Source: a virus
Direction: 5' to 3' (one strand)
IMG/VR virus record: IMGVR_UViG_3300042527_000698
Location: 1-44,773 of that record
DNA: 44,773 nt
Shown: positions 1 through 44,773 of the stretch, one piece after another
Layout of the letters: each line of letters begins with the position of its first letter
How positions within the stretch are numbered: the first letter of the stretch is position 1
Made by a program: the position numbers and the translations under genes
The notes under the pieces: generated by a model
Database searches by the model: none
Seen by the model: the letters and a program-made list of their open reading frames with translations, nothing else
What the model was told of the DNA's origin: nothing

Positions 1-3000
1 ATAAGGTTTGTCGTTTAACGCGTTGAATCCGGCAGTCACCGCCTGCCCAACGATAGGCGCAAACGCAAGCAGATATTTTCCTTGCGTCTCAAGCGTGTAG
101 GTCAACCAGTCATTAAGGTAGCCGTCATCTTCCTCGTCTTCTGGAAGTTGACCGCGCATGGCGTCTGCAATGACTTGGCCAATTACCGCCGGAATAGCAA
201 AACCTAAGAAATACAGGTACAGCAACCGCCCTGCGCCCTTCCTTAAGCCCATGTCGCGGATGGCAATCTGAAACTCTGTCGCCAGCAAATTGGCGTTCAT
301 GTTAAAATAGTTGTACATGTGCGTGAACAAGCGCAGCCCGACATTGCCCGCTTCAGCGCGAGAAATGTCTTCAGGCAAAGTCGAAGACTGTGTTTGGCGC
401 ACAACACTATCAGCTTGCGCCACGGCTTCATCATGGGTTTCGCCTTTGGCCGTGGCGTCGTCGTAAGCGCCCTGCCAAACCACAACGTCAATGACGTTTT
501 GAAAAGCGATCTGCATAAAGTAGGTGTGGCGAGCGAACCACATTGTCAGCTGTTTGTATTTGTTGTTCGGATCAATGATCTGCTCAATCTCGCCGAATAT
601 GCCGCTGGCCTGGTTGTCGCCGCGCTCCCGCATCATCGCGCTGGCCGCTCGAATGCCATCCGTCACGCCCTTAGGGTTAAGCATATAACGCGCCAAGCCC
701 TGGGCCAGCCGATGTGGCGGAACACGCACGGCCGCTAGAGCAAAGCCCGTCACCTGCTGCACCACGTTCACGAAGTTCATGAACATTAAGCCCATGCCGG
801 AGCGGCGCCGCAGACCACGGAAAAAAGCGTCGATCGCTTTGCCGCCTGTGCCGGTTGTCGGGGTTTCAACAATTTGCCGCGCCGCTCGGTTAAGCCACGG
901 ATCAAGCATGTCATCAAACGCTGTCGGGTCGTAAGCGTGCAGCGATTCCGAAACCTTTTTGTCTTTCAGCACTGACAACACATCGCGCACAGGCGCGGCC
1001 ATGTAGGAGAACTTCAGCACCTTGTCGAGGTGGCCAGAAAGCAAAAGCAAATCCAGATGCATTTTGCCCACATAGTCTGTGCGGTTTTCGGTGAAGCCAT
1101 TAGCCGGAGCGGGGAACATGCTGCTGTCTTCCAGCTTTTCAGCTTCAAGCTTTCGCGCAATATCGGCCGATGTTTGAGGATCATAGATCGCAGGAACGTA
1201 ACCGCCGCGATATGTTCCAAAGGGCGTGACGACAGTTTCCGCTGTGATCTCGTTAAAATAACGTCCGAAGACGCGCCGATGGGTTTCTTGCGCCAACGAT
1301 TTGGTTTCTTCCAGCAAGTCCCAAACGCTTTGGGCAAAGTCAAAATCTGCTTGCGTCAGCGTGCCGTCCGCCGCCATGCGCTCAATCATGGCGCGCCAGC
1401 GGCTGTCATCCACCGTTTTTTTATCAGGCATAAGCGTGCCCCAGCCATAGCCAAGCAGGAGCTTGCGCTTGTTGCTGGCGTTGCCTGTGTGCAGGATGGC
1501 GTGCAGAAGCTGAGACTTGTTCTCAAACGAAAACCCGATTTCAGGCGCGTCAATGCGCCCCGGCTTCATCGTTGGCGCAATCTGATCAAACAGCGCGCGA
1601 TAGCGAGCGATGAAGTCATTACGCGCAATGCGATATTGATCCGCCGCTTGGCTGATTGGCCGCCAGATAAGCCGGGTGAACGGTCCTGTTCGCCCGCCAT
1701 CGGCTTGGCGCGCCCAGCTTTCAACCCGTCGCAGCCACGAACCAAGGCCCGCAATGGCGCGCATGTCGCGTTCGATTTTTGTTGGCGCGCGATCAAGGCC
1801 CCGTTGAGGCTTGGTTTTTGTGACCGCTTGCAGGCGGGTGACAATGCTTTCGACCGCTTCTTCGCGGTCCATTGTGCGACCCTCGATCACAATGATCTGT
1901 TCTTCGCGGGCCAAGTCATACAGGCTTTGGATCGTGTCGCGCAGGCCCGTGAGTTCGGTGACGCTCAGTTGATCAAGCGGTTTCGGGTTGCGTATGGCCG
2001 CTGTCATTGCGGGTTCAATGTTGGCATAGAGCGCGGGATCGTAGTCCTGAACCGCCTTGATGTAACCTTCAATCTCTTCGGCTTGGCGTTCTGTTCCCTC
2101 GCCAAAGGCGCTCAAGATCGCCCTCGCCGCCATGACAAGATCGAAGTTCCGGTTCTTGGCGACGTTTTCTTTTTTGCCAGCACGCACGCGCCGGAAAAGG
2201 GCGCGAGCGCTTTGGTAGGCTTTCTGCTGACGCAGTGTTTCGGCGGTGATCTCGAAGGCAAGAAGCTGATCGCGGCTCGCCTCTGCAGCCGCCGCCAAAT
2301 CGTTTTTGCGCATCGCCATGAGCACACGCCGGCCAGCTTTGCGCTCGGCAGCCACCGCTTGCTTGACGCTCAACTTGCTCGCTCTCTGGCGCCCGACGAT
2401 GATCTCAGCCGCAGCGCGAGCGTTCTCGCGCAGCAAAGCCCTGCTGCCGATTGCTTTAGCTAGCGCCGCATGCTGTGCCGCCAAGAAGCGACCGCGCAAG
2501 CTGTTATGCACGGCTTCTGTAGCTTGCCGCTCCATCTGCTCGGGCGTGTGGGCCTCGCCATATTGCTCCAGCATGCGCCGATCGGTCTCGGCGTTGATCG
2601 CGTCTTGCTGCTTGGGCTGGGTCAACAAATCGTTGAGCAGGGCCTGGCCGCTGTCATAGCCAAGCATGCCGGCAAGGGTGTCCGCGTCCAACCCTACTTC
2701 AGCCAGCATTCCGTATTTGCCATAGCCGAGGCTTTGCCAGTCAAGGCTGTCGCCAAACTGAGCGCGCAGCGCTGCGATCGACAGCTTGTGAGGGCCCGGA
2801 ATAGGCTGACCGTCTGGGCCAACGCCGCGTGAGATAAAGCGCCGCGCCCGGTTGACGGGCAGATTTGCAATTTCCTCCGTGACCTCTGCCTTGATGGCAT
2901 TGCGCAACTTGCGATGCTGGGCTTGCAGCTTGCGCAGCTCCCGGCTTTTGGCGCCGCTCAGCCATTGCATGTCTTTGAGAGCGCGCGCGCCAAGATCGGC

Positions 3001-6000
3001 GGTTGCCTCTTGCGTGGCCTGTTGTCCTAGCTCTTGGTATGCGCGCCATTCCTGTTCGGTCATGAAGGCAGGCTTGGTGGTAAACGCAGGCTTGAGGCCT
3101 AGGCCTTCTTCCGCCCGTTGCGTGTTGCCCTCAGCAACATACAGCCGGTCCATGACCTGGCGCACTTCGTCGGACAGTTCGACATTGAGGCTTGTCATCG
3201 AGCGATAAACTTCGCCCAGCCATTTCTTAAACACGCCGAAAAGATTGTCTAACGCTGGCGTCGGTGACTTGCCCTCCATGAAATAGCGCTCGGTCATCCG
3301 CGCCCACACCTCATGCATGGCCGTGCGATCTTGTAAACTCAGGCTTGCAAACCAGCGGATGAGGTCTGCGCCTTCGGGCGGGGTAGGGCCTGGGGCTGGG
3401 GTCTCGCCGCCGGCAAACAAAGGCAAGCCCTCTTTGCCCAGCTGGCTGCGCATTTCCGGTGTAATGTCGAGAACGTAAGCGGAGGCGTCCCCAGCGGAAG
3501 ACCGCACCCCGCCCTCGCGGACCTCGCCGCCAAATACGCGCGCGACCTTTTCCAATGCGCCGCGCACGTTTGTGTCGTAATGGCCCGCCGCGATGTCGTT
3601 GCCCTGAATAAAGCTTGCGCTTGTCTCACCAGTCGGAAAGCTAATGCTGCTGTAGCCGTCGCGCACGGCGCGCATGACCATCGCTCGCACACCTGCGTTC
3701 GTCCATTGCGATGTGGTTTTGGTAAGCGGCGACAGCTCGATGTTTGCCTCATTTTCAAATTGCGATCGAGCTATGCTGTCTTTTTCTCCGGCGGGCGCCG
3801 GCACATATTGCAATTCACCGTTTACGTTTTCAACGGTAAAGGCCTTCGCTGTTGGGTACCGATCCAGCAGCCGTTGTGCGACTTTGGCCTTTTCAATAAA
3901 TTCACGCTCCGACTGCGCCAGATCGCTTTGGAGTTGGCGCACAAACAATGTGCGTTGGCCTTTTTCGTCGAGCCGATCCGACCACAATATGTGCATCAGA
4001 TCGCCTTCGATGTCGGTGTGAGAGCCTTTCTGTTTTCCGCCAGGCGCATCTGGCGGAAGCACCAGCGTCGTTTGATACCGCGCAATATCGGGGTCTGTGT
4101 CCAAGTCGTAATCGTCGCCAACGCGCAGGCTTTGAAGCGCGGCTTCGTTGCGCTCTTCGGTTTCTACGAAAGCAACGTCTTCGCGCGCTTGTGCCGTTAT
4201 TTTGCGGACCAGCCGATCATAGTTGGCCTCTTTGAATGCCGCGATAATAACCTCATACACTGCGGATTGCGGCACATCGGTCCTGATAACGGTTTGCCCG
4301 TCGAAGAAGCCATAACCAACAGAAACTGTGTACACGTCAGAGCCGGATTGCCGCTTGGCCTTGACGGGTGTAACCCTGAATGGCTTGCCATCATTATCTA
4401 AGGCCTCGCCAGTCGAAATCACTTTCGTCTGTGTGCCGTCAATGGTGTAGGTGTTGTGCTTTAGAGCAACATCAATTTCCGGCCCAATCGCGAAGCCGCT
4501 CTTATCTCCGTGCAAAGAATTGAAAGCCACGGCCCTGTCCACGACCATGGATCGCGTCAAGCGCAGGGGCGCTTGGGGTATATAACTTTCTTCGACCGCG
4601 CTTAAAACCAGGCGGTTGGCTTCGATGTATTCGATCACCTCTTGTTTTGTAACGCGCGCGCGACCCTCAAACTGTTTGCGCAAACCCAGGAAATCAATTT
4701 CGTCTTTGACGCGGCCAGTGTAGCCCTCAACGCCGCGCGCCTTCATAATGCGGCCAACGGCCTCGCTGCCGCGCATCGCTCGATCTGGCAAGGCGCGCGC
4801 AGCTTCCAAGGCGACAGATGCAAAGCCCAACGGATCCAGGGCGCGCCTAGGCGCTTCAGCGCCGAAGCTTTCTTCTTGCGCCAACACATCGCCCTCAGTC
4901 CTGGGCGGCGCCGGCTGCTGTCCTGCCTGCCGTGCTATTTCGGCAATGGCGGTCTGCATGTCTTGAATGTGCTGCAGCTGGCGATCGGTCAGGGTCTCGC
5001 CAGCCGCTTGCCGATCGAGCAGGCTCATTGCCACGTTGACATGCACTTCGAGAAAATGGTGCCCCATCTCGTGCAGGAAGGTGGACATATTGCTGTCGGG
5101 GCCGAGGCGGATCTCGGCCAGGTTGGGGTAGTATTCGCCGATGCGTTGGCGTTGGCCTTCGCCGCGCGCAAACAGCGGCAGCCCTTCCGCGGCCAGCTGG
5201 CTGCGCATTTCTGGCGTAATGTCGAGGATGTAGGCGGGGGCGAGCGCCCCTTTATCGCCCTTCTGAACCGTTAACGCTTTTTGTGCGTCGGCAATTCGTT
5301 CTTGCACACGCTGAATTTCTGAAGGGCTAGCGCCGGTGTCTAGCATTCGCTGGATGGCTCTTGTTTCGCGCGAGATCAAATCTATTAGCGCGGCGTCATC
5401 CATTGACATTCGCATGCGCACCGCGCTCGGAGCGCCCGCTGTAGGGCTGTACTCCACCCCGCCCTCACGGACCTGGCCACCCAGCGCGAGCGCAACCTTT
5501 TCCACAGCGGCCTTAACGTTTGTGTCGTAATGACCGGCGGCTCGACTATTGCCCTGCATAATCGTGCTGGTTTCGCCCGTCGGGAAGCTGATGCTGTCAA
5601 AGCCTTCCCGCGCTGCGCGCAGCACCATTGCCCGCACGCCGGCGCCGGTCCATTGCGACGTTGTTTCCGTGAGCGGCGGAATAGGCTCGTCGCGCTCTTT
5701 TTTGGTTTTGCGCCCTTGCTGCGCCAAATCGCTCTGAAGCTGCCGAATGAAAAGCGTGCGTTGGCCTTGATCGTCGACGCGATCGGCCGCGAGAATGTTA
5801 ATGACCTCACCCTTGACGCGCGTGTGCGGACCAAAAGTTTCGCCGCCCGTCACATTTTCCGGCAGCGTGATAACGAATTCTCGACGCGCAACGCTTGCAT
5901 CTGTGTCCAAGTCGTACGCCAACCCGACGCGCAGGGGCTTGCCGTATGTCTCATCTGCCGCACGATACGCGGCATCACGTTTTTCCTCGGCTTGGCGTAT

Positions 6001-8940
6001 AGCGGCGTCGCGCGTTGCCTCGGCTTGGCGCAAGGCAGCAACGTCACGCGTCGCCTCCGCCAACTCATATGCTTCGCGCGCCGAATTTTTGATAGCGTCA
6101 AAAGTGTTTTGCGCTGCACGTATAGCCGCATTGCGCTGCGCGACACGCGAAAACGTATTATACGCCGCGCGAATAGCGGCTTCGTATGTTGCGCGCGCAG
6201 GATCAACAATAGCGTTGTAGGCCTCGCGCGGAGGATTTGCAAAATCGGCAAATGCCTGCTTCGCCGCCCGCACCTCATCGTCATACGTGGCCCACGCTTG
6301 GCGCAAGGCCGCGTCGCGTTCGGGCGATGTCGCGCGCCGCTCCACCTCGCCAAGCACCAGGCGGTGCAGCTCGATGTACGCGATAATCTCTTCGCGCGTG
6401 ACGCTTTTGCGGTTTTCAAATTCTGCACGCAACCCAAGGAAATCAATTTCGTCCTTGACCCGCCCTGTAAATCCTTTAACGCCGCGCGCTTTTGTAATGC
6501 GACCCACGGCCTCACTACCGCGCATTGCGCGAGCGGGCAGGGCGCGCGCGGCCTCTAAAGCGATCGACGCAAAACCTAACGGATCCAGGGCGCGCCTCGG
6601 CTGTTCAGGCCCTTCTGTCTCGTCCTGCCCAAACCCTTCACCCACCGGCTCTCCCGTCGCCGGATCATAGCCGCGCTCACGCAGAAATCGCTGGCTGCTA
6701 GGAGTAAGCTCCTTGCCCTCACGGATGCGCTGCAGAATGCGGGCAAGCTCTGCCGCCTCTACCCGATCATAGTTCGCGATGATGCGCTCGTTAGCCGTGA
6801 GCCGCTCGCCGCGCGCTTGCTTGTCAGCGACGCCTTGGATCATGGCGGTCCACTCTGGCGTGTCAGGCTCAGGCAAGACCGGGATCTCGCGCGGCGGCTG
6901 GCCGAGGCCCTTATCGGAACGTTGCATAGCGGCAAACCGCAAAGGATAACGCTGCCGCGCCTCGCTGGCGCTGATGCCCTCGATTTGCCCGATCACGGCG
7001 TAGGACTGCGCCGCGATGCGAGCGTAAGGGATCACACCCTTGTCGCCGATCTGCCGCGCTGCACCGTCCGTGATGAGCGGCGCCAAGCCCTGCTCGATCG
7101 CCTGCTGCACTGGCGCCAGTTCGGCTTCAAGGTCCTGCTGCAGATTGATGATCTCGGCCCTGCCTTCAAGGTCTGCCGCCATGTCCACGGCCAGCCGGTT
7201 GGCCACCGCGATCGCTTCATCCGCGCCTTGCTCACGCAAAGCGTCGATCTCGCGCCTCGTAAACAGCAACGGATCGGTTTTGATAATTTGAAGCGTGTCC
7301 GTCTCAAGATCGGTTTTTGCCACCGCGGCGACGAAATCCCCGACTGCGATCTCGATCAGCGTGCCGGGCGCAGCGTCGGCCTGGGCGATCTGTTGTTTCG
7401 TCGCGCCCATGGACTGGGCCAGTGCCTCATAACTCACGCCGCGGTCTTGCGCCAAAGACTGAAGATCCGCAGGCGCGACGTAGATCGTCGAGATGGGGCC
7501 CTCTTCTGCTGCGGCGTTTACGAATTGGGCCAAAGTCGTGCGATCCCGATCGGTGAGCGGCATCGCTTTGGCCACTTCGACGGCGCGCTCTACGGTCGCA
7601 ATGCCGCCCTCAGCGGTGCGGGCGAGTCTCTGCATGCGCTCCAGTTCGCGGCGCTGCAGGTAATTTTCCACCGGCACAGTGAGCGGAGCGGTGGCGATCG
7701 TAAGGCCGCCGCCACCGACCGCACCGCGAAGGGCGGCCTCGCCAGCGCTAGCCAATGCCTCAGGCGTCACCGTCGCCGCCGCAGCGCGCCCGGCAACTTC
7801 AAGCGCGCCCGCGCCTTCGTTAACCGCAGACGCGCCCTCGCCCACGGCGATGCTAACCAGTTGCTGCAAGAACTCTGTGGCGCCCTCAATTGTCGCGGCC
7901 TGGCCGGCATTAACGGTAAGCCGGCGCAAAGTGTCACGGCCCTGGGGCGTGGCCAACAACTCGCTGACAACATCCTTGGCGCCTCTGCCAAGCAGTCGAT
8001 CTAGGCCGGGGATGTTGACCCTTGCGAGAAATACGCCGGCAGCCGTTTCGCCAACGGCGTTAATTACGCCCGCGGTAAGAGCCGCGCCAGCAACCACGTC
8101 GCCGTCGAGAAACTGGCCCTTTTCATCGCGCTGCTCGGCATACTCAACAAAGCTTAAACCGATTTGTTGCTCCACACTAAACGCAAATTGTCCGGCGGTC
8201 ACGCCCACGGAAAAGCCCGCCTTCGCGCCCGGAATTGCGCCAACGCCGCCGACTATGGCGCCTGCAGCTGCACCGCCCGCAGCGCCTATGGCGCCGCCCG
8301 TCGCCAAGGATGGGAGGGCGGCGACAAGCTGGACGCCTGTTTCCGAAACTGCATTGGCCACAAAGGGCACAACGCCTTCTTGCCAGCTTAGAGACGTTTC
8401 GCGCGCTCGTTCGACTTTCAACCTCCGAAGCTCTTCGGCTTTTGCGGCCGGGAACGGCTGCCCCGTAATTTGAGCCTGGAAAGCCTCACGGCCTAACCGC
8501 CCAGTTTGAATTTGCAGGTCACTGATGACAGCCCCGCGCCCCATAAGATCGCTACCGAGGCGCTCGAGCCCAACCACATCTTGAGCGCTTAAAACACGCG
8601 CGCGCTCTTCATCGTTAAACACACGGGTGAGAGTTGGGGTAATGTTCGCCAGACTGCGCTGAGCTTCGGCAGCCTCCAAGCTCTTGACGCCTTGGGCTCG
8701 GGCGATTGCCAAAGGCGTTTGCGTGCTCGCGGCAAGCCGGCGTATCCGGGCCTCTTCCTCCGGGTTGCCGTACATAAACTGTCGTTGCGCGATAGCGCGC
8801 GCGCGGATTTCGGCAGGGCTTGTTGCGGTGGGTGAGCGAACAAGAAACTCTTCTTCTTCTGGCTCCAAATCCAGCACAGACCGTTGGCGCGGCCTAGGCT
8901 CTGGTCGCCTTTGAAGCAACAGTTCTTCTTCATCTTCCAC
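1..8940 (-). CDS. giant phage polyvalent protein (partial, runs off the left edge)
   Basis: One open frame of 2,980 codons without a stop; joined to the copy at the right end it would be about 3,075 residues. An in-frame TAA directly precedes the GTG start, and GGAG lies 9 bases upstream. The N-terminus is acidic and a Gly/Ala-rich hydrophobic stretch follows near residues 210-260. A segment of about 480 residues occurs twice (about 774-1260 and 1357-1841), separated by a piece with an HExxH motif (HEMGHH, residues 1290-1295). Copy A also carries an Ala-rich coiled coil. Each copy has a motif like RTLF.RQLQSDLAQ followed by SISFPTGET, seen in other phage polyvalent proteins. The last 300 residues resemble the LPD38 domain. 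The gene sits after the gp14/gp15-like genes, where T7 has gp16, so it is probably injected with the DNA. That role is inferred from position. Confidence 0.88.
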   Translation of the reverse strand, partial: MEDEEELLLQRRPEPRPRQRSVLDLEPEEEEFLVRSPTATSPAEIRARAIAQRQFMYGNPEEEARIRRLAASTQTPLAIARAQGVKSLEAAEAQRSLANITPTLTRVFNDEERARVLSAQDVVGLERLGSDLMGRGAVISDLQIQTGRLGREAFQAQITGQPFPAAKAEELRRLKVERARETSLSWQEGVVPFVANAVSETGVQLVAALPSLATGGAIGAAGGAAAGAIVGGVGAIPGAKAGFSVGVTAGQFAFSVEQQIGLSFVEYAEQRDEKGQFLDGDVVAGAALTAGVINAVGETAAGVFLARVNIPGLDRLLGRGAKDVVSELLATPQGRDTLRRLTVNAGQAATIEGATEFLQQLVSIAVGEGASAVNEGAGALEVAGRAAAATVTPEALASAGEAALRGAVGGGGLTIATAPLTVPVENYLQRRELERMQRLARTAEGGIATVERAVEVAKAMPLTDRDRTTLAQFVNAAAEEGPISTIYVAPADLQSLAQDRGVSYEALAQSMGATKQQIAQADAAPGTLIEIAVGDFVAAVAKTDLETDTLQIIKTDPLLFTRREIDALREQGADEAIAVANRLAVDMAADLEGRAEIINLQQDLEAELAPVQQAIEQGLAPLITDGAARQIGDKGVIPYARIAAQSYAVIGQIEGISASEARQRYPLRFAAMQRSDKGLGQPPREIPVLPEPDTPEWTAMIQGVADKQARGERLTANERIIANYDRVEAAELARILQRIREGKELTPSSQRFLRERGYDPATGEPVGEGFGQDETEGPEQPRRALDPLGFASIALEAARALPARAMRGSEAVGRITKARGVKGFTGRVKDEIDFLGLRAEFENRKSVTREEIIAYIELHRLVLGEVERRATSPERDAALRQAWATYDDEVRAAKQAFADFANPPREAYNAIVDPARATYEAAIRAAYNTFSRVAQRNAAIRAAQNTFDAIKNSAREAYELAEATRDVAALRQAEATRDAAIRQAEEKRDAAYRAADETYGKPLRVGLAYDLDTDASVARREFVITLPENVTGGETFGPHTRVKGEVINILAADRVDDQGQRTLFIRQLQSDLAQQGRKTKKERDEPIPPLTETTSQWTGAGVRAMVLRAAREGFDSISFPTGETSTIMQGNSRAAGHYDTNVKAAVEKVALALGGQVREGGVEYSPTAGAPSAVRMRMSMDDAALIDLISRETRAIQRMLDTGASPSEIQRVQERIADAQKALTVQKGDKGALAPAYILDITPEMRSQLAAEGLPLFARGEGQRQRIGEYYPNLAEIRLGPDSNMSTFLHEMGHHFLEVHVNVAMSLLDRQAAGETLTDRQLQHIQDMQTAIAEIARQAGQQPAPPRTEGDVLAQEESFGAEAPRRALDPLGFASVALEAARALPDRAMRGSEAVGRIMKARGVEGYTGRVKDEIDFLGLRKQFEGRARVTKQEVIEYIEANRLVLSAVEESYIPQAPLRLTRSMVVDRAVAFNSLHGDKSGFAIGPEIDVALKHNTYTIDGTQTKVISTGEALDNDGKPFRVTPVKAKRQSGSDVYTVSVGYGFFDGQTVIRTDVPQSAVYEVIIAAFKEANYDRLVRKITAQAREDVAFVETEERNEAALQSLRVGDDYDLDTDPDIARYQTTLVLPPDAPGGKQKGSHTDIEGDLMHILWSDRLDEKGQRTLFVRQLQSDLAQSEREFIEKAKVAQRLLDRYPTAKAFTVENVNGELQYVPAPAGEKDSIARSQFENEANIELSPLTKTTSQWTNAGVRAMVMRAVRDGYSSISFPTGETSASFIQGNDIAAGHYDTNVRGALEKVARVFGGEVREGGVRSSAGDASAYVLDITPEMRSQLGKEGLPLFAGGETPAPGPTPPEGADLIRWFASLSLQDRTAMHEVWARMTERYFMEGKSPTPALDNLFGVFKKWLGEVYRSMTSLNVELSDEVRQVMDRLYVAEGNTQRAEEGLGLKPAFTTKPAFMTEQEWRAYQELGQQATQEATADLGARALKDMQWLSGAKSRELRKLQAQHRKLRNAIKAEVTEEIANLPVNRARRFISRGVGPDGQPIPGPHKLSIAALRAQFGDSLDWQSLGYGKYGMLAEVGLDADTLAGMLGYDSGQALLNDLLTQPKQQDAINAETDRRMLEQYGEAHTPEQMERQATEAVHNSLRGRFLAAQHAALAKAIGSRALLRENARAAAEIIVGRQRASKLSVKQAVAAERKAGRRVLMAMRKNDLAAAAEASRDQLLAFEITAETLRQQKAYQSARALFRRVRAGKKENVAKNRNFDLVMAARAILSAFGEGTERQAEEIEGYIKAVQDYDPALYANIEPAMTAAIRNPKPLDQLSVTELTGLRDTIQSLYDLAREEQIIVIEGRTMDREEAVESIVTRLQAVTKTKPQRGLDRAPTKIERDMRAIAGLGSWLRRVESWARQADGGRTGPFTRLIWRPISQAADQYRIARNDFIARYRALFDQIAPTMKPGRIDAPEIGFSFENKSQLLHAILHTGNASNKRKLLLGYGWGTLMPDKKTVDDSRWRAMIERMAADGTLTQADFDFAQSVWDLLEETKSLAQETHRRVFGRYFNEITAETVVTPFGTYRGGYVPAIYDPQTSADIARKLEAEKLEDSSMFPAPANGFTENRTDYVGKMHLDLLLLSGHLDKVLKFSYMAAPVRDVLSVLKDKKVSESLHAYDPTAFDDMLDPWLNRAARQIVETPTTGTGGKAIDAFFRGLRRRSGMGLMFMNFVNVVQQVTGFALAAVRVPPHRLAQGLARYMLNPKGVTDGIRAASAMMRERGDNQASGIFGEIEQIIDPNNKYKQLTMWFARHTYFMQIAFQNVIDVVVWQGAYDDATAKGETHDEAVAQADSVVRQTQSSTLPEDISRAEAGNVGLRLFTHMYNYFNMNANLLATEFQIAIRDMGLRKGAGRLLYLYFLGFAIPAVIGQVIADAMRGQLPEDEEDDGYLNDWLTYTLETQGKYLLAFAPIVGQAVTAGFNALNDKPY
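242..368. repeat. 127-bp terminal overlap, left copy
   Basis: Identical over exactly 127 bases to 44647-44773. The flanks to the left (1-241 versus 44406-44646) align without gaps but differ at about 50 of 241 positions. A length of exactly 127 matches a common maximum k-mer in short-read assemblers, which suggests that the contig closes on itself here. Confidence 0.9.
3415..4870 (-). repeat. intragenic duplication, copy B
   Basis: Second copy of a roughly 1.45-kb segment within the giant gene. Matching blocks include the start (RRALDPLGFAS.ALEAARALP), KDEIDFLGLR, the QSDLAQ and SISFPTGET motifs, and the end (TPEMRSQL..EGLPLFA). At DNA level the matching blocks look about 75-85 % identical by eye. 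Copy B lacks the long Ala-rich coiled coil of copy A and has its own insert of about 100 residues instead. Confidence 0.8.
5160..6620 (-). repeat. intragenic duplication, copy A
   Basis: First copy of the duplicated segment of the giant gene, nearer its N-terminus. It differs from copy B mainly by an Ala/Arg-rich heptad-like region (about 5940-6330) with repeats such as RQAEATRDAAIRQAEEKRDA, which probably forms a long helix. A 280-bp stretch containing the HEMGHH motif separates the two copies. Confidence 0.8.
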
Positions 8941-26507: not shown

Positions 26508-26957
26508 TCAGCGGCGCCCCGTTCGTGGCTGGCTGATCTTTGGCTGCTGCTCTGGCGCAAACACGACCGAAGCGTGATGGCTGCACCAGCTTTTGCCGTG
26601 CAGCGTGAGCGCGCCGCAGTAGATGCCAGGATCACCGGGCGGTGAGCACAGCCACCGGCATTGCCCGTCTCGCGCCGACAGCAAACCAACGCGGTAGCCG
26701 GCGTCTGGCGCCAGCGGCACGTCTGCGGCTGGCGTCCGTAGCGGGTGGGCGCGAAGCCTGGTGCGCGTTGGCGGCGCATCGACCGTGCGCAAGCGGACGC
26801 CCTTTGCTCGCAATCGGTTGATCCTGCCGATCACGGCATTGCGAGATCGGCCGAACACCGCAGCCAGCAATCGCGCGCTTTTGCCGGTGTTCCACTCGCG
26901 GATCAGGTCAGCGTCCTCTTCGGGCGCCCACGTTTTTGGTTCAGACGTTTTGAGCAC
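26508..26957 (-). CDS. GcrA-like cell-cycle regulator
   Basis: 149 residues from GTG at 26957, chosen because AGGAG lies seven bases upstream; the longer frame from 27137 lies inside the previous gene. The N-terminal part (TWAPEEDADLIREWNTGKSA and GRSRNAVIGRINRLRAKG) matches the GcrA DNA-binding helix-turn-helix. The C-terminal part (GQCRWLCSPPGDPG, then YCG and WCSHH) matches the Cys/His-containing sigma-binding end of GcrA. In alphaproteobacteria GcrA works with sigma70 at CcrM-methylated GANTC promoters. It overlaps the winged-helix gene by 17 bases, so the two regulators are a unit at the head of the late operon. Confidence 0.85.
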   Translation of the reverse strand: MLKTSEPKTWAPEEDADLIREWNTGKSARLLAAVFGRSRNAVIGRINRLRAKGVRLRTVDAPPTRTRLRAHPLRTPAADVPLAPDAGYRVGLLSARDGQCRWLCSPPGDPGIYCGALTLHGKSWCSHHASVVFAPEQQPKISQPRTGRR

Positions 26958-27369
26958 GATCGGTCTCCTGTTGCTCGTGATGCATTGCGTCAATTTCCGC
27001 TTGGACTGCGGCGCGGCCGGTCGCTGTGAGGCGGTAACCCACGCCCCATGTTGTCTCGATAGAGCCGGGCGGCAGGGCCTTTCGTGCGCGCCACGCTGCG
27101 ACGCTGGCGCAGCTTTCGGCGCACACATTAGGCCCAAGTTCTTGGACTAGAGCCTCGCGGGACACGACACGCGGATACGCCACATAAAGCCGTGCGACGG
27201 TTTTCACCCCCCAGTTGCGACCATACTGCGTTTGCCCTTTGCCCCGGACCAAACGGCGAGCGGCTTCATGCACGTCCGAAGGCAATTTTTGCTTCGCGCG
27301 CAGTTCGGCAATTTCTGCCTCCAGCTCCTCAATCCGCTGCGCTTGCCATCTGGTCGTTGCTTCACTCAT
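26941..27369 (-). CDS. winged-helix regulator, OmpR/CtrA-type DNA-binding domain without receiver
   Basis: 142 residues. A coiled N-terminus (RIEELEAEIAELRAKQKL) precedes a winged-helix-like domain. VSREALVQELGP, AAWRARKALPPGS and IETTWGVGYRLTATG match the recognition-helix region and the wing (IET..G.GY.L) of OmpR-type transactivators such as CtrA. There is no receiver domain. GGAG lies seven bases before the ATG. It heads the leftward operon and is translated with the GcrA-like protein. Calling it CtrA-like is inference from the wing motif and the partner gene. Confidence 0.7.
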   Translation of the reverse strand: MSEATTRWQAQRIEELEAEIAELRAKQKLPSDVHEAARRLVRGKGQTQYGRNWGVKTVARLYVAYPRVVSREALVQELGPNVCAESCASVAAWRARKALPPGSIETTWGVGYRLTATGRAAVQAEIDAMHHEQQETDRAQNV

Positions 27370-27599: not shown

Positions 27600-27790
27600 C
27601 ATTTCACTCGGTCACTCATTTCCCCCCCCCTACGGGGGGAGGGGAGAAAGTGAATGACTGACCGAGTTAAATAGTGCTCACTTTTGAGCGGTCATCGATG
27701 ACTCACAAATGACCCGAAAGTGACCGATGACTTTGTAACGCAAAGTCATCGATGACTCACCGGTGAGTCACTAATGACCAAAAGTGAGGC
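27600..27790. other. candidate replication origin / regulatory repeat cluster
   Basis: The non-coding block from 27370 to 27745 plus the last codons of the primase gene is dense in symmetry. A cruciform-like element at 27606-27667 has 15-bp arms with one mismatch and an inner C9/G6 hairpin. GTCATCGATGACTCAC occurs twice (27691-27706 and 27745-27760). An 11-bp hairpin (27725-27735 / 27741-27751) has a 5-base loop. TGACTCACCGGTGAGTCA (27753-27770) is an 18-bp perfect palindrome. AAAGTGA recurs several times. Three GANTC sites lie at 27700, 27754 and 27765. Its position beside the primase-helicase gene suggests an origin; a control region for the leftward operon is the alternative. The rest (27418-27600) is low-complexity C-rich sequence with a GTTAGCTAAC palindrome. 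Confidence 0.6.
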
Positions 27791-29842
27791 CCTCCAACCT
27801 GGCTCAATGATAGCCCAACCACCGTCCGAACCGCCGCCTTCGCCCCCCTCTCCATGCGACGCCCTTTGGATCCATCCAGCGTTCAGCAAGTCATGCACAG
27901 GCTTCCCTTTGCTGCCCGGCGCCAGAATGTTTTTGACCGACCCTGGCTTGTAGCCGTCATTTTCCAGCAGTTTGGCCACCGCCTCCCTAAAAACGAACGG
28001 ATCCTCGCCAAGCAATATTTTTCCACCTTCGACCCAGGCCCTGGAAAATAATTTCTGATGGTGATGGATGGCCCCGTGCCCGGCAAAAGCGGCTTCTGTT
28101 GGCTCTGGCGGGGCCTCAACGAACACCGCGCTGGTGACGGCCTCGCCATCCTCATCGACCCATCCGGCGAGGGTGACGGTCTCGAGCTTGGCGTTCAAAG
28201 GCGGCTTCAGCTCAGCGTCTTTGCTCTTTCTCTGGACCAAACGCAGGCACCCGTTGTCGCCGGGGACTACGCTGATCTCGATGTCCAGCGCCCCCCGCCA
28301 AGCGCTCGATCCTCTGGCGCGGTGCTGGGCTTCCTCACTCACGCCTGTGTGGTGAACGAGAATGACCGCGCAGCCAAAGCCCCGCATGAGGTAGGCGCAC
28401 GCGTCCAACATAGTTTTGGCGTCTTGGGCGCTGTTCTCGTCGCCCCTCAGGAAGCGATGCAGGGTGTCCACCACGATCACATCAGGCTGGCGGTTCAGGT
28501 TCCTGATGTGGTCGATGACATGCTGCAGGCCCTCCTTGGTATTAAGATCACACCCTTCCCGGCTTAGCCACATTGTCAGGCTGTCGGCTTGGTGGTGTTG
28601 TTTCCACGCAGCGACGCGCCCTCGCAAGCCATGGTGTCCTTCGCCGGCGAGATAGACCACCGCCCCCGGCTTGACCTTGCATCCGTTCCAGTCGGTGCGG
28701 CCAGCCGCCATGTGCAACATCAGGTCAAGCACGGCGAATGTCTTGCCCCCGCCCGATGGTCCATGGATCATGTGCAGGGCTTCGGCCTGGATCCAGCCCT
28801 TGACAAGCCAACGCAACGGCGCGGGCTGGGATGAAAACTCATCTGCCGGGATAAGCCATTGCTCGATCGGCGGGTTGAGCAGGGCTTGCAGGTCATGGCC
28901 GGCGGCAACGTAGTCATTGGCGTCACCCTGAATAGGAATAACCACCACCTTGGCGCGGTGCTTGGCGGCTGCCTGGGTTGCGTATTTTTCTCCGACGCCG
29001 CTGGCGTCATTGTCCGCCACAATAACCAGCTCAGCGCCCGGGTGGGCCTCGCGTATGCAACCTGTTACAGAAACTAGGTTGTTGGCGCTGTACGCCACCA
29101 CGCAGGGCTTGCCGGTAGTCTCGTGAATGGTGGCCGCTGTGGCGAAGCCTTCGGCGATGTAGACAACCTCGGAGCCGCCCGCCGCTTGAGCATTTATCGC
29201 TTGAGCATTTATCGCTTGAGCATTTGCCGCTTGAGCATTTGTCGCTCCCAAAACCCAATACCGCCCGCCGGTCGCCGCCCCTGCGTGATAGAGCTTGCCG
29301 CCTTCGGCGTCGATATATTGCAGCGACGACAGCGCGCCCGTGTGATCGTAGAGGGGAGCCATCAACCGCCCATCGCCGGTAATGCGAAGGCCGTGTGCCT
29401 TAACCTTCTTGCGCGCGAGGTATGGGTGATCGTCACTGGCGGGACCGGCTTGGCTCCAAATAGCCTCGACCGTTTCGGCGGCTTGCGCGGCCTTGGCGTC
29501 TCGCGCGGCGCGGGCCTCAGCCTGCCTGCGAGTGATAGCCATCTGCTCATGAGCCGTCAGTGGGCGCCCAACCTCAGCCCTAAAGGTCTGCGTCACGCCA
29601 GTGCGCCAGTCGCCAAACATGCCAGCGCACACGCCATCGGGGAAAAACACATACCAGCCTGCCCTATCATGCCCGGCCTGGCCCTTGCTGCCCGTCTGGT
29701 AACGATGCAGCGTGCCGTCGATCACGATCGTGTGGGGTGGCTGTATTCCCGCCGACCGCATGGCGTCTCTGATCTGATCGTCGATCGGCGCTGGCCTTGG
29801 TGGGCTCCATGGACCGCCTAGGATATGCGTCAGGTCAGTCAC
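27746..29842 (-). CDS. primase-helicase (TOPRIM + RepA-like ATPase)
   Basis: 698 residues from GTG at 29842, preceded by a G-rich ribosome site; a TTG start at 29872 is possible. A TOPRIM domain has the catalytic Glu in YIAEGFATA (E231) and the DxD in VIVADNDASG (D277, D279). A RepA/AAA_25 ATPase follows, with Walker A HGPSGGGKT (360-368) and Walker B-like DVIVVDTLHRF. Fused primase-helicases of this kind start phage replication. An Ala/Asn/Gln repeat (202-221) lies just before the TOPRIM core. The last codons run into the palindrome cluster. It is transcribed opposite to the recombination operon. Confidence 0.88.
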   Translation of the reverse strand: MTDLTHILGGPWSPPRPAPIDDQIRDAMRSAGIQPPHTIVIDGTLHRYQTGSKGQAGHDRAGWYVFFPDGVCAGMFGDWRTGVTQTFRAEVGRPLTAHEQMAITRRQAEARAARDAKAAQAAETVEAIWSQAGPASDDHPYLARKKVKAHGLRITGDGRLMAPLYDHTGALSSLQYIDAEGGKLYHAGAATGGRYWVLGATNAQAANAQAINAQAINAQAAGGSEVVYIAEGFATAATIHETTGKPCVVAYSANNLVSVTGCIREAHPGAELVIVADNDASGVGEKYATQAAAKHRAKVVVIPIQGDANDYVAAGHDLQALLNPPIEQWLIPADEFSSQPAPLRWLVKGWIQAEALHMIHGPSGGGKTFAVLDLMLHMAAGRTDWNGCKVKPGAVVYLAGEGHHGLRGRVAAWKQHHQADSLTMWLSREGCDLNTKEGLQHVIDHIRNLNRQPDVIVVDTLHRFLRGDENSAQDAKTMLDACAYLMRGFGCAVILVHHTGVSEEAQHRARGSSAWRGALDIEISVVPGDNGCLRLVQRKSKDAELKPPLNAKLETVTLAGWVDEDGEAVTSAVFVEAPPEPTEAAFAGHGAIHHHQKLFSRAWVEGGKILLGEDPFVFREAVAKLLENDGYKPGSVKNILAPGSKGKPVHDLLNAGWIQRASHGEGGEGGGSDGGWAIIEPGWRASLLVISDSPVSHR
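29183..29242 (-). repeat. in-frame 15-bp tandem repeat
   Basis: Four near-perfect copies of CGCTTGAGCATTTAT in the primase-helicase gene, encoding an (I/A)NAQA repeat. They sit in the linker before the TOPRIM core. Such a repeat can change copy number in 5-residue steps without breaking the frame. Confidence 0.85.
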
Positions 29843-29884
29843 ATCCGCCCCCCTCGAACAGGGCGGGCGCAAAAAGTCGTCAGG

Positions 29885-30055
29885 TCAGTCAACTCTTTCC
29901 CCCAGATAGTCGCTCAGTTTTTTCAACACGGCGTACGACGGCGTGGCGCCATGCATCAGGCGCAGGATTGTTGCATATCCCACTCCCGTCAACCGGCTGA
30001 CCGCCCGCAGGTTTCGATCCTGCAATTGTTTTCGGATAGCTTCAATAGTCTGCAT
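29885..30055 (-). CDS. Cro-like helix-turn-helix regulator
   Basis: 56 residues from ATG at 30055, with AGGA eight bases upstream; a GTG at 30097 would add 14 residues. The body (IRKQLQDRNLRAVSRLTGVGYATILRLMHG, then SYAVLKKLSDYLGE) is a compact HTH like XRE/Cro family proteins. It is divergent from the Sak4 operon. A 29-bp dyad lies between the two starts, so it most likely represses the early plus-strand operon, itself, or both. Confidence 0.75.
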   Translation of the reverse strand: MQTIEAIRKQLQDRNLRAVSRLTGVGYATILRLMHGATPSYAVLKKLSDYLGERVD

Positions 30056-30123
30056 GTGATCAGTCCTGATATTTTTTTCGCTCACTGCTGTTGACACAAT
30101 CGCTCAAATTGCGCAAGGTCCAA

Positions 30124-35702: not shown

Positions 35703-35888
35703 ATGAAAAGCAGTTCTGCCAAATGGGACCGCGCCGCGCCGACCCCGTGCCCCTGGCTGCGCGATACACCGCGCCCGGCAGGTGTTCCGCCGTGGCGCGT
35801 GTGCGTGCGCGACAAATGCCAATGCCACCCCCTCCCAGCCGCGCCGACTGACTCCCCCGCCGCCCTCTCCGGGGAGCCGCAGCCATGA
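35703..35888 (+). CDS. small Pro/Cys-containing protein, unknown
   Basis: 61 residues. AKWDRAAPTPCPWLRDTPRP and VPPWRVCVRDKCQCHPL, with four Cys and many Pro, might bind a metal. Several overlapping frames exist here. I prefer this one because its TGA overlaps the ATG of the 16-codon ORF that in turn overlaps the methyltransferase start, making a continuous coupled chain. Confidence 0.5.
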   Translation: MKSSSAKWDRAAPTPCPWLRDTPRPAGVPPWRVCVRDKCQCHPLPAAPTDSPAALSGEPQP

Positions 35889-35935
35889 GCGCCGCTATGG
35901 GCCTCTGCGCCCTTCTCGATGGGGAGACCCCATGA
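35885..35935 (+). CDS. 16-residue leader peptide before the methyltransferase
   Basis: MSAAMGLCALLDGETP, starting at the ATGA overlap with the previous gene and ending in an ATGA overlap with the methyltransferase start. The methyltransferase ribosome site (GGGGAG) lies inside it. Such a reading frame would bring ribosomes to the methyltransferase start. It may be only a coupling device rather than a functional peptide. Confidence 0.4.
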   Translation: MSAAMGLCALLDGETP

Positions 35936-36750
35936 CCGGGGCTCTGCGCGTCCTCGACCTGTTTAGCGGGATCGGCGCTTACGCCCTGGGCCTTGAGCGC
36001 GCCGGCATGAGCATCGTTGCTTTCTGCGAGATCGAAGAATACCCCCGCCGCGTGCTGCGGCGCCACTGGCCGGATGTCCCGATTTATGACGACGTGCGCA
36101 CCCTCGACGCTGCCGCTCTTCGGCGAGACGGAGTTACCGCCGATGTCGTCTGCGGAGGCTGGCCTTGCCAAGACCTCAGCCCAGCGGGCACAGGCGCTGG
36201 CCTGGACGGAGCACGCAGCGGACTATGGAGCGAAGTCGCCCGAATACTTGGCGACGTTCGACCCCGATGGGCGGTGCTGGAAAACAGCTCAAACCTGCTT
36301 GGGATTAACGGGGGATCTGACTTTGGCCGCGTTCTCGGGGACTTGGCCGCGCTCGGGTACGATGTCGAATGGCATTGCCTCCCGGCTGCAGCCTTTGACG
36401 CACCCCACATCCGTGATCGCCTCTGGATTGTGGCGCGCCGGGGAAGAACTGCTGCCGACGCTGACGAAAACGGACGGTATGGGCGGCCCAGGGCGGTCGG
36501 CCAAACGCAAGGGCGGCGACAATCTGCGCACGGCGGTCCTGCTCCCCACCCTTACGGCCACGCGGCGTTCGGGGCTGCAATCGCACGGCGAGAACGCCAT
36601 ACTTGGGAGCCTGAACCCGACGTGGTGCGAGTGGTACATGGGGCTCCCAATCGGGTGGAGCGCATTAGAGCCCTCGGCAACCTCAACCCCCCGATCGTCC
36701 CCGAACTCATCGGCCGCGCGATCCTCGAAGCGGAAGGGCTGACCCCATAA
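35932..36750 (+). CDS. dcm: C5-cytosine DNA methyltransferase
   Basis: 272 residues from ATG at 35932, with GGGGAG five bases upstream. Motif I is LDLFSGIGAYALGL (8-21), motif IV GGWPCQDLS with catalytic Cys79, motif VI VLENSS (115-120), motif VIII HIRDRLWIVA (159-168) and motif X RALGNLNPPIVPELIGRAIL at the end. The target-recognition region between VIII and X is short and Arg/Gly/Ala-rich. It transfers a methyl group to cytosine C5, probably to protect phage DNA. No restriction partner is present. Most of the gene is also open in the +1 frame (see the next entry). Confidence 0.9.
   Translation: MTGALRVLDLFSGIGAYALGLERAGMSIVAFCEIEEYPRRVLRRHWPDVPIYDDVRTLDAAALRRDGVTADVVCGGWPCQDLSPAGTGAGLDGARSGLWSEVARILGDVRPRWAVLENSSNLLGINGGSDFGRVLGDLAALGYDVEWHCLPAAAFDAPHIRDRLWIVARRGRTAADADENGRYGRPRAVGQTQGRRQSAHGGPAPHPYGHAAFGAAIARRERHTWEPEPDVVRVVHGAPNRVERIRALGNLNPPIVPELIGRAILEAEGLTP
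36143..36742 (+). CDS. overprinted +1-frame protein inside the methyltransferase gene
   Basis: 199 residues if read from ATG at 36143, which has a CGGAG nine bases upstream; the frame is open from at least 36017. The sequence has AGLAKTSAQ, RCWKTAQTCL, FSGTWPRSGTMSNGIASRL, IASGLW, LLPTLT and LNPTWCEWYMGLPIGWSAL. I recall these motifs from stand-alone phage proteins encoded near Dcm genes. Each motif is the +1 reading of a methyltransferase motif: AKTSA over PCQDLS, WKTAQ over LENSS, TWPRSGTM over LGDLAALGYD, and NPTWCEWYMG over PDVVRVVHG. It may be a genuine second product; expression is unproven. Confidence 0.5.
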   Translation: MSSAEAGLAKTSAQRAQALAWTEHAADYGAKSPEYLATFDPDGRCWKTAQTCLGLTGDLTLAAFSGTWPRSGTMSNGIASRLQPLTHPTSVIASGLWRAGEELLPTLTKTDGMGGPGRSAKRKGGDNLRTAVLLPTLTATRRSGLQSHGENAILGSLNPTWCEWYMGLPIGWSALEPSATSTPRSSPNSSAARSSKRKG

Positions 36751-42730: not shown

Positions 42731-44121
42731 GACGCCAGAAGCCCCAGATTCTTTAACGCTTTAACCACGTCGCTAATTGTGTAAGCGGCAGATCCAACAT
42801 TGCCGGTGAAGGTGGCGTTGGCGTGAATATTTGTACCGCTGCCACCTGAAACGCCTGTGGTTTCGCCCGTCCCGGCCTGTTGCACAACAGGAGTGGCGTT
42901 GTAGAAAGCCAACTTCTGCCCCGTTGCCGTGCCGATCTTTGTGCCGGTGCCCGTGGCCAGAACAATGTTTCCGGCGTCCGCAATCGTCAGGCCTGCGAAG
43001 GTAGGGCTGTCGCCAGTCCCCACGCCAAGCGTCGTCCTCACGGCGCCAGCGTTGGCGTCGTCAAGCATCGTGCGGGCGAAACTGGTCAGGTCCGTTTGGG
43101 AGAAAGTGTCCGTGCCCGTGCTGTAAACCAGCTTGTCCGCGCCCGTCGCAAGCCCGGCAAGAGCCGTCAGCGTCGCGTCCAATGGCTGCCCGCCTAACGC
43201 CGTCAAAGCTGCGCCTGCCGCTGTTGCGCCCGTGCCACCGTCGGCAATCGGCAAAGGCGAATTGATCACGGCCAGCGAGCCAAGGCCAAGCGTGGTGCGC
43301 CCCGCCGCAGCGTCTGCATCGTCCACCAGGCCAGCGCCAAACGCGCTGACGCTCGCCGCGGGGAAAGCTGCAAGCGGCACAGCGCTCGCCATCACGTTGA
43401 CGACAAACACCACCAAATCGCCAACGGTCAGGCCCGCATTAAAAGTCACCGTCGTGGTGTTAGTCTCCACCCAATCCTGCGTAGAGCCTTGTTCCACCTT
43501 CAAGCCATTGACAAACGCCGTGATGGCGCTGGCGTTCAACACGTAAGGCGTCGGCAAGGTGAAAACCGTCTGGCCCGCCGTGGCCAACACGCGATGCACG
43601 TATTGATAGGTCGTCGTGCCAAGGCCGGTTCCGTTGACGTTTTGCAACGCCGTCGCGCCAGAGTTCCAACCAATCAGCGCGCCGCTCTGCGGCACGGGCA
43701 GGACAGTGTTGATGCCGCTCGACGAAACAGGCACAACCAACGCCCGGTCCAGCCGCTCGTCCAGCTGCTGGATCTGGATGGTAGCCCGGTCGAGGCCGTC
43801 GTTGACGACCTCAGGGTAGAACGCCCCAAGGTTCGCGACCGCCGTGGGCTGGAGGTTGAGCACATTGCTAGTGATCGTGATCGACTGGCCCACCGCAGGG
43901 GTCGTTAGCATCGTCACCGTGCCGCCTGGGTTAAGGTTTTGGTTTGCGTTCAGCGTCACCGTGTAGTGCGTGGTCAGGGTCAGAACCGTGTCCACGCCAG
44001 AGGCGGTGCGCGTGACCTGCACTTCGGCTGTGGTGAAGACCTTGAAGGCAAAGGCAAAGGCCGTGGTGGATCCATTGCCTGCGTAAGGGCCAGCGCGCCG
44101 GGTTTCAGAACTAATGGTCAT
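42727..44121 (-). CDS. tail fibre protein, T7-type N-terminus
   Basis: 464 residues. The N-terminal 130 residues (GPYAGNGSTTAFAFAFKVFT, LTLTTHYTVTLNANQNLNPG and GAFYPEVVNDGLDRATIQIQ) match the T7 gp17-like tail-attachment domain. The rest is Gly/Ala/Thr-rich with repeats like TTLGLGSLAVINSPLPIADG and TLTALAGLATGADKLVY, typical of fibre shafts. The end has a helix but no clear receptor domain. The ATG overlaps the stop of the giant gene. Confidence 0.88.
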   Translation of the reverse strand: MTISSETRRAGPYAGNGSTTAFAFAFKVFTTAEVQVTRTASGVDTVLTLTTHYTVTLNANQNLNPGGTVTMLTTPAVGQSITITSNVLNLQPTAVANLGAFYPEVVNDGLDRATIQIQQLDERLDRALVVPVSSSGINTVLPVPQSGALIGWNSGATALQNVNGTGLGTTTYQYVHRVLATAGQTVFTLPTPYVLNASAITAFVNGLKVEQGSTQDWVETNTTTVTFNAGLTVGDLVVFVVNVMASAVPLAAFPAASVSAFGAGLVDDADAAAGRTTLGLGSLAVINSPLPIADGGTGATAAGAALTALGGQPLDATLTALAGLATGADKLVYSTGTDTFSQTDLTSFARTMLDDANAGAVRTTLGVGTGDSPTFAGLTIADAGNIVLATGTGTKIGTATGQKLAFYNATPVVQQAGTGETTGVSGGSGTNIHANATFTGNVGSAAYTISDVVKALKNLGLLAS

Positions 44122-44773
44122 TGGTTGTTCTTACTTGCCTCCGATGCGGAGCCGGTCACCAAGCCCCGTGCATAATCCAATTCGTCGGCGGGTTCCACAT
44201 CGCCTTCAGCGACGTCGAGCGCGTAGCCGACGGGGCGCGAAGCCGCGGAGAAGGGGATGCCTGTCGCCAAGGTCATGGCGTTCAACAAATCTTTAGCGGC
44301 GCGGCTTTGATCGCCTTCTTCCATGATCGCTTTGTAAACGCTTTCTGGCGTTCTGCTCGCCGACTCGTAAATACTGACGGCTGGCGATGTGCCTACGCGA
44401 TCGTCAAAAGGCTTTTCATTAAAATGATTAAACGCGGCGTTTATTCCCTGCCCAGCGATCGGCACAAACCCAAGCAGATATTTTCTCTGCGTCTCGAGCG
44501 TGTAGGTCAGCCAATCGTCGAGATAGCCGTCGTCCTCCTCATCCTCTGGAAGCTGACCGCGCATCGCGTCTGCAAGGGCCTGGCCAATTACCGCAGGAAT
44601 AGCGAAGCCTAGGAAGTACACATACAGCAACCGCCCCGCGCCTTTTCTTAAGCCCATGTCGCGGATGGCAATCTGAAACTCTGTCGCCAGCAAATTGGCG
44701 TTCATGTTAAAATAGTTGTACATGTGCGTGAACAAGCGCAGCCCGACATTGCCCGCTTCAGCGCGAGAAATGT
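44118..44773 (-). CDS. giant polyvalent protein, C-terminal part (partial)
   Basis: C-terminal 217 codons plus two bases and the stop of the same gene that runs off the left edge; the first 127 bases are identical to 242-368 and in the same frame. It contains FTHMYNYFNMNANLLATEFQ, two hydrophobic helices (LLYVYFLGFAIPAVIGQALA) and an acidic EDEEDDGYLDDW segment, then a charged end (GDVEPADELDYARGLVTGSA). The stop overlaps the tail fibre start by four bases. Confidence 0.85.
   Translation of the reverse strand, partial: ISRAEAGNVGLRLFTHMYNYFNMNANLLATEFQIAIRDMGLRKGAGRLLYVYFLGFAIPAVIGQALADAMRGQLPEDEEDDGYLDDWLTYTLETQRKYLLGFVPIAGQGINAAFNHFNEKPFDDRVGTSPAVSIYESASRTPESVYKAIMEEGDQSRAAKDLLNAMTLATGIPFSAASRPVGYALDVAEGDVEPADELDYARGLVTGSASEASKNNQ
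44647..44773. repeat. 127-bp terminal overlap, right copy
   Basis: Exact copy of 242-368. Immediately before it (44406-44646) the sequence is about 79 % identical to 1-241 by a hand count of 50 mismatches, with no gaps. See the left copy. Confidence 0.9.

Follow-up and report, generated by a model that had tools for sequence, protein, structure and literature searches.

The window analysed here is the complete 44,773-nucleotide stretch of the viral record IMGVR_UViG_3300042527_000698. It contains a primase-helicase gene that encodes, in one polypeptide, a Toprim_3 primase and a helicase domain homologous to RepA (1g8y), with matches to the RepA/T7 gp4 fold (Table 1). The C-terminal domain is predicted to be a winged helix, and its structure matches are generic (ArsR/MarR-like and forkhead; Z at most 7). 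An earlier note on this DNA had described a 190-bp cluster of palindromes, hairpins, a direct repeat and AAAGTGA words beside the gene, and every one of these features is present. The block adjoins the gene as described; however, positions 27746-27790 are also the coding 3' end of the gene.

Table 1. Positions of the block, its elements and the neighboring genes in the window
Feature	Positions	Strand	Remarks
Primase-helicase gene (Toprim_3, AAA_25 and C-terminal winged helix)	27746..29872	-	Stop at 27746; start codon uncertain
Codons of the C-terminal winged helix (~residues 600-690)	27803..28075	-	Predicted
Codons 643-661 (predicted recognition helix and next segment)	27890..27946	-	Word covariation at 648, 651, 654 and 661
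Cro-like HTH gene, upstream of the primase gene	29885..30097	-	Tested as alternative reader
Array of 11 RGTCAY words in mixed orientation	27610..27779		Proposed iterons for the primase-helicase; kept in 12 relatives
Long imperfect hairpin with words in the stem, apex GTAG	27601..27672	-	Apex CTTAG in relatives; stems altered across the family
18-bp perfect palindrome TGACTCACCGGTGAGTCA	27753..27770		Two inverted words
Second stem-loop GATGACTTTGCGTTACAAAGTCATC	27726..27750	-	GGGG/AAAA spacer at the same place in relatives
12-bp palindrome GTCATCGATGAC	27691..27702		Another copy within 27744-27757
Three GANTC sites, one per word copy	27700..27769 (27700, 27754, 27765)		Positions kept in 12/12 relatives

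The palindromes, the direct repeats and the GANTC sites are arrangements of one word, RGTCAY. While the block has 11 copies of this word, the maximum elsewhere in the window is four per 200 bp, and, as a statistic, we prefer this density over GANTC clustering. No other perfect palindrome of the window is as long as the 18-bp one, the repeat GTCATCGATGAC(TCAC) lies at 27691 and 27745, and AAAGTGA/TCACTTT is found at 27647, 27678, 27717 and 27781. The long hairpin has 20-nt arms that are 90% complementary, and DNA folding gave z = -9.3 for the minus strand of the window and z = -5.1 for the related locus L003. AT-richness is mild, with a GC content of 0.50 in the block vs. 0.57-0.60 in the flanks, and a search of Rfam at the block returned nothing but a chance-level microRNA match far under its cut-off. 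The word profile of the window is less uniform than that of most relatives.

Conservation of the block in related phages

The block, including positions in the hairpin, is retained in viral contigs whose primase is 87-91% identical, and the sequence past it diverges. The comparison with related phages that the earlier note had proposed thus shows a conserved block, with the GANTC positions kept in all 12 close relatives. The inner hairpin has two self-complementary versions, CTCCCCTCCCCCC-GTAG-GGGGGGGGG and TTCACTCACACC-TTAG-GGTGAGTGAA, and L008 carries the window-type hairpin inside the other background. Next to primases that are 50-58% identical, other words are present at the same place (AGGGTCA, CGGTAAC, CGTACC, AGGGGGC, CGGAAC and others). 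Among named phages, the word is GGGGACA in Salicola phage CGphi29, GGTACA in Idiomarinaceae phage 1N2-2 and GGTTCA in the Alteromonas phages PB15 and XX1924.

By a simple word-array cut-off, an array lies 3' of the same gene in 174 of 214 aligned related loci; at least six further loci have an array that this cut-off did not pick up (L027, L041, L043, L044, L099 and, with a displaced array, L045), giving ~180 of 214 when the missed ones are included. The arrays of the family have many copies in both orientations, comprise more than 20 different words and contain the top 7-mer at 13.4/kb inside the blocks vs. 0.10/kb elsewhere. The hairpin apex (CTTTAG, CTATAG or CTTAG) is constant across the family while the stem sequence varies: hairpins with the apex C-TNTA-G or CTTAG were found in 50 of 103 phages and with 36 different perfectly paired stems (expected, 0.16). 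Perfect DnaA boxes (TTATCCACA) are ~90-fold enriched in the blocks of the family (47 in 47 kb of blocks vs. 8 in 757 kb elsewhere) and are found in 28 of the 103 phages; the block of the window itself has none.

In L045, an insertion (6186-7180) parts the primase stop codon from the array, and the whole unit lies intact ~1 kb away. Compared with L048, the displaced unit has kept the DnaA boxes and the hairpin, and the word spacing is nearly unchanged. The insertion has a 283-codon open frame that is acyltransferase-like by eye (NHQSWVD motif). Upstream of the primase gene in the same locus, at ~1850, CTCTGGC is repeated 22 times within 300 bp.

A clade of ~30 loci (L207-L246) has the primase and no array after the gene. 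The recognition segment also differs in this clade, the origin of which probably lies elsewhere. L107 retains an NNY-type helix, for which its locus yielded no matching array. Host prophages gave two matches only, both of them partial, and a description of this array family was not found in the open-licence literature.

Covariation of the word with the predicted recognition helix

For each residue of the primase-helicase, we compared the mismatch between protein pairs with the distance between their words, with overall divergence removed, in 103 non-redundant phages. Residue 654 tracks the word best, with a partial r of 0.44-0.47 compared to 0.28 for the next best column and a permutation maximum of 0.17; because the permutation ignores relatedness, the other columns are the fairer yardstick. 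After residue 654, the C-terminal residues that track the word are 661, 648 and 651. In close pairs, the mismatch at residues 648, 651 and 654 is 0.65, 0.62 and 0.81, respectively, when the words differ, and 0, 0.04 and 0 when the word is the same, with a few clades dominating the same-word pairs. For instance, L019 has 86% core identity to L051 and a different word, while its helix and word are common to the 70% identical L039. Among distant phages, word similarity is better predicted by helix similarity than by primase or helicase similarity. At residues 648/651/654, TQK is mostly found with TGGGACA, TKK with GGGGACA and NNY with AGGGTCA; a strict residue-to-base code based on automatically aligned word profiles is only partly clean.

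Because the array adjoins the 3' end of the gene, linked transfer could mimic such covariation. Synonymous third positions in the C-terminal part gave values of 0.03-0.06 (~0.045 at the helix), whereas amino acids 641-660 average 0.178; residues closer to the array track the word less than the recognition helix does. Linkage accounts for part of the covariation between word and helix, but linkage alone does not explain it because synonymous sites give only ~0.045. The values for the two neighboring proteins that served as controls were low (0.17 for the Cro-like HTH protein and 0.10 for Sak4), and both were rejected as readers of the word because they do not covary with it.

A candidate replication origin

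Based on the sequence comparisons reported here, we suggest that the block is likely the replication origin of the phage, and that the phage's own primase-helicase reads its words through the C-terminal winged helix. In this model, the many copies of the word (here RGTCAY) would be bound by the winged helix of the TOPRIM-primase/RecA-type helicase encoded immediately upstream, and the binding of several copies would gather the helicase on the DNA. The hairpin beside the array would be exposed or extruded and provide a single-strand signal for priming. Host replication proteins would then take over, and in many family members the flanking DnaA boxes may help. From the sequences we infer that the words are physically bound, that the helicase is loaded, that the hairpin serves in priming and that the block acts as an origin. 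An origin is favored because the DnaA boxes cluster, the hairpins persist, the unit in L045 is intact and the layout matches that of described origins. The suggestion in the earlier note that the block may be an origin is, therefore, supported by a conserved word array and hairpin tied to the primase-helicase and by the clustering of DnaA boxes in the family. GC skew, which had been proposed as a check, gives no clear sign at the block, where it is confounded by gene direction.

Among the alternatives, it is conceivable but unlikely that, in this clade, host methylation of GANTC at three of the words modulates binding of the initiator to this same origin and couples phage replication to the host cell cycle without GcrA. 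GANTC is strongly avoided in the window (21 sites vs. 143 expected) and 5- to 7-fold avoided in the genomes of its clade (observed/expected ~0.13-0.15), yet all three positions in the block are retained; at one of them, GANTC is preserved although the window and most relatives have different middle bases. However, the sites lie wholly within the word, which in this clade reads GAGTCAY or TGACTCA, and the entire block is conserved. Moreover, other lineages that avoid GANTC equally (L254, L206, L104, L229 and L230) carry this element, too, in arrays free of GANTC, and the retention of GANTC is, therefore, explained by the word. In L224, an unrelated word (GAGTCCG) likewise includes a GANTC site. 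The clustering of three GANTC sites beyond chance, as described in the earlier note, holds in so far as the sites are present and the probability of any three of 21 sites falling within 65 bp is ~0.009, but the three are not independent because they lie inside copies of one repeated word. Thus, the methylation sites are mostly a by-product of the word of the phage.

We consider it improbable that the block is an operator array through which the primase-helicase would regulate its own transcription or a phage repressor would act on the downstream operon, with no role in replication. The block lies upstream of the next minus-strand gene and a Cro-like gene is nearby, but the Cro-like HTH protein does not track the word, a search of the region found no sigma-70-like promoter, the downstream genes vary among the phages, and a unit of DnaA boxes and hairpin fits an origin better.

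A GcrA-type, methylation-dependent late promoter, in line with the late-operon control by GcrA-read methylation put forward in the earlier note, is very improbable. The GcrA-like protein is indeed encoded in the window (PF07750, E = 1.1e-11; 26508-27137, minus strand), where GANTC sites cluster at the block. Among 20 records of relatives, however, none has a PF07750 match; several of these are fragments, but the two 43-kb records L008 and L016, which keep the block, are not small. In addition, the promoter search, which covered the sigma-70-like type, gave no match, and the GANTC-free arrays of the other GANTC-avoiding lineages argue against this reading. The GcrA-like gene is apparently a recent or clade-specific acquisition.

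Equally improbable are a terminator of transcription or a structure in the 3' untranslated part of the primase transcript, for which a stable hairpin directly 3' of the stop codon would speak but which lacks a T-run, gave no hit at the block in a terminator scan, is at odds with the unit in L045 that lies ~1 kb off behind another open frame, and leaves the word array unexplained, and a packaging (pac/cos) site, which would fit the terminase genes within a few kb after the block in the window and CGphi29 but not PB15 and XX1924, in which no terminase is annotated in the ~4 kb after the array, nor an array that stays with the primase and covaries with its winged helix. TIGR-Tas RNA arrays, in work on which CGphi29 is cited, were set aside, the element being an array of short words linked to the primase.

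Comparison with known replication systems

The proposed replication origin resembles iteron-type origins recognized by their own initiator in that several copies of a short repeat adjoin the gene of the putative initiator (~1 kb off in L045). As in the alpha protein of P4, primase, helicase and winged helix are united in one polypeptide. The helicase of P4 alpha is of the SF3 type, while the helicase here is of the AAA_25/RecA type; also, different from P4, the array is 3' of the gene and the word is hypervariable. In P4 alpha, the winged helix binds the origin repeats (PMC4234260). In SaPI and SCCmec elements, the C-terminal domain of the helicase recognizes short iterons that lie immediately 3' of the helicase gene (PMC7581432). 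The arrangement described here is similar, with a C-terminal domain as the proposed reader, except that helicase and primase are separate proteins in SaPI/SCCmec whereas here a RecA/RepA-type helicase is fused to a TOPRIM primase. The IncQ plasmid RSF1010 has RepA, RepB' and RepC together with iterons and ssi hairpins (PMC4234260), and shares with our system a RepA-homologous helicase domain and iterons, here proposed ones, plus stem-loops. By contrast, RSF1010 has a separate RepC initiator and RepB' primase, while primase and helicase are fused here and the primase is of another type; and its iterons contrast with the short, diversified words described here. ORF904 of pRN1 and its counterpart in Bordetella phage BIP-1 are also primase-helicase-winged-helix proteins with a poorly conserved stem-loop downstream of the gene (PMC4234260), which parallels the sequence-variable stem-loop downstream of the gene here; unlike the element in the window, these systems have an archaeo-eukaryotic primase, an SF3 helicase and no iterons. 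In the Vibrio cholerae PLE, RepA and the origin covary and swap as modules (PMC8263062). The covariation of the DNA-binding domain of an initiator, here a putative one, with an origin is common to both systems, but the PLE has few known variants and a RepA_N family protein with no primase or helicase, as opposed to more than 20 words and a residue-level signal here.

The primase-helicases T7 gp4 and Twinkle have the same overall fold, to which a C-terminal winged helix is added here. To our knowledge, T7 gp4 has no origin-binding domain. A T7-gp4-like fork enzyme has seemingly gained its own origin-recognition domain.

We also suggest, tentatively and with less confidence than for the origin itself, that the words function as private passwords. 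Word and helix would change or be swapped together so frequently that more than 20 words coexist, the word would be predictable from a few residues of the helix, and the driver would probably be avoidance of cross-talk with other phages in the same cell, with satellites or with origin-directed nucleases. The family provides a natural library: more than 20 origin words together with the winged helices by which they are apparently read. As a result, the joint change in specificity of an initiator and its origin, as well as a recognition code for winged helices, become directly testable, and likely origins can be placed in many unannotated phages.

Additional observations

GATC is present 339 times in the window vs. 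160 expected (~2-fold), while GANTC is 7-fold avoided, and the same is the case in L008 and L016. The window also has a phage gene for a C5-cytosine DNA methyltransferase (35782-36750, plus strand). At its left end, a 2980-codon open frame on the minus strand (1-8940) runs off the contig; if the contig is circularly permuted, this frame may continue at the right end at 44118-44735.
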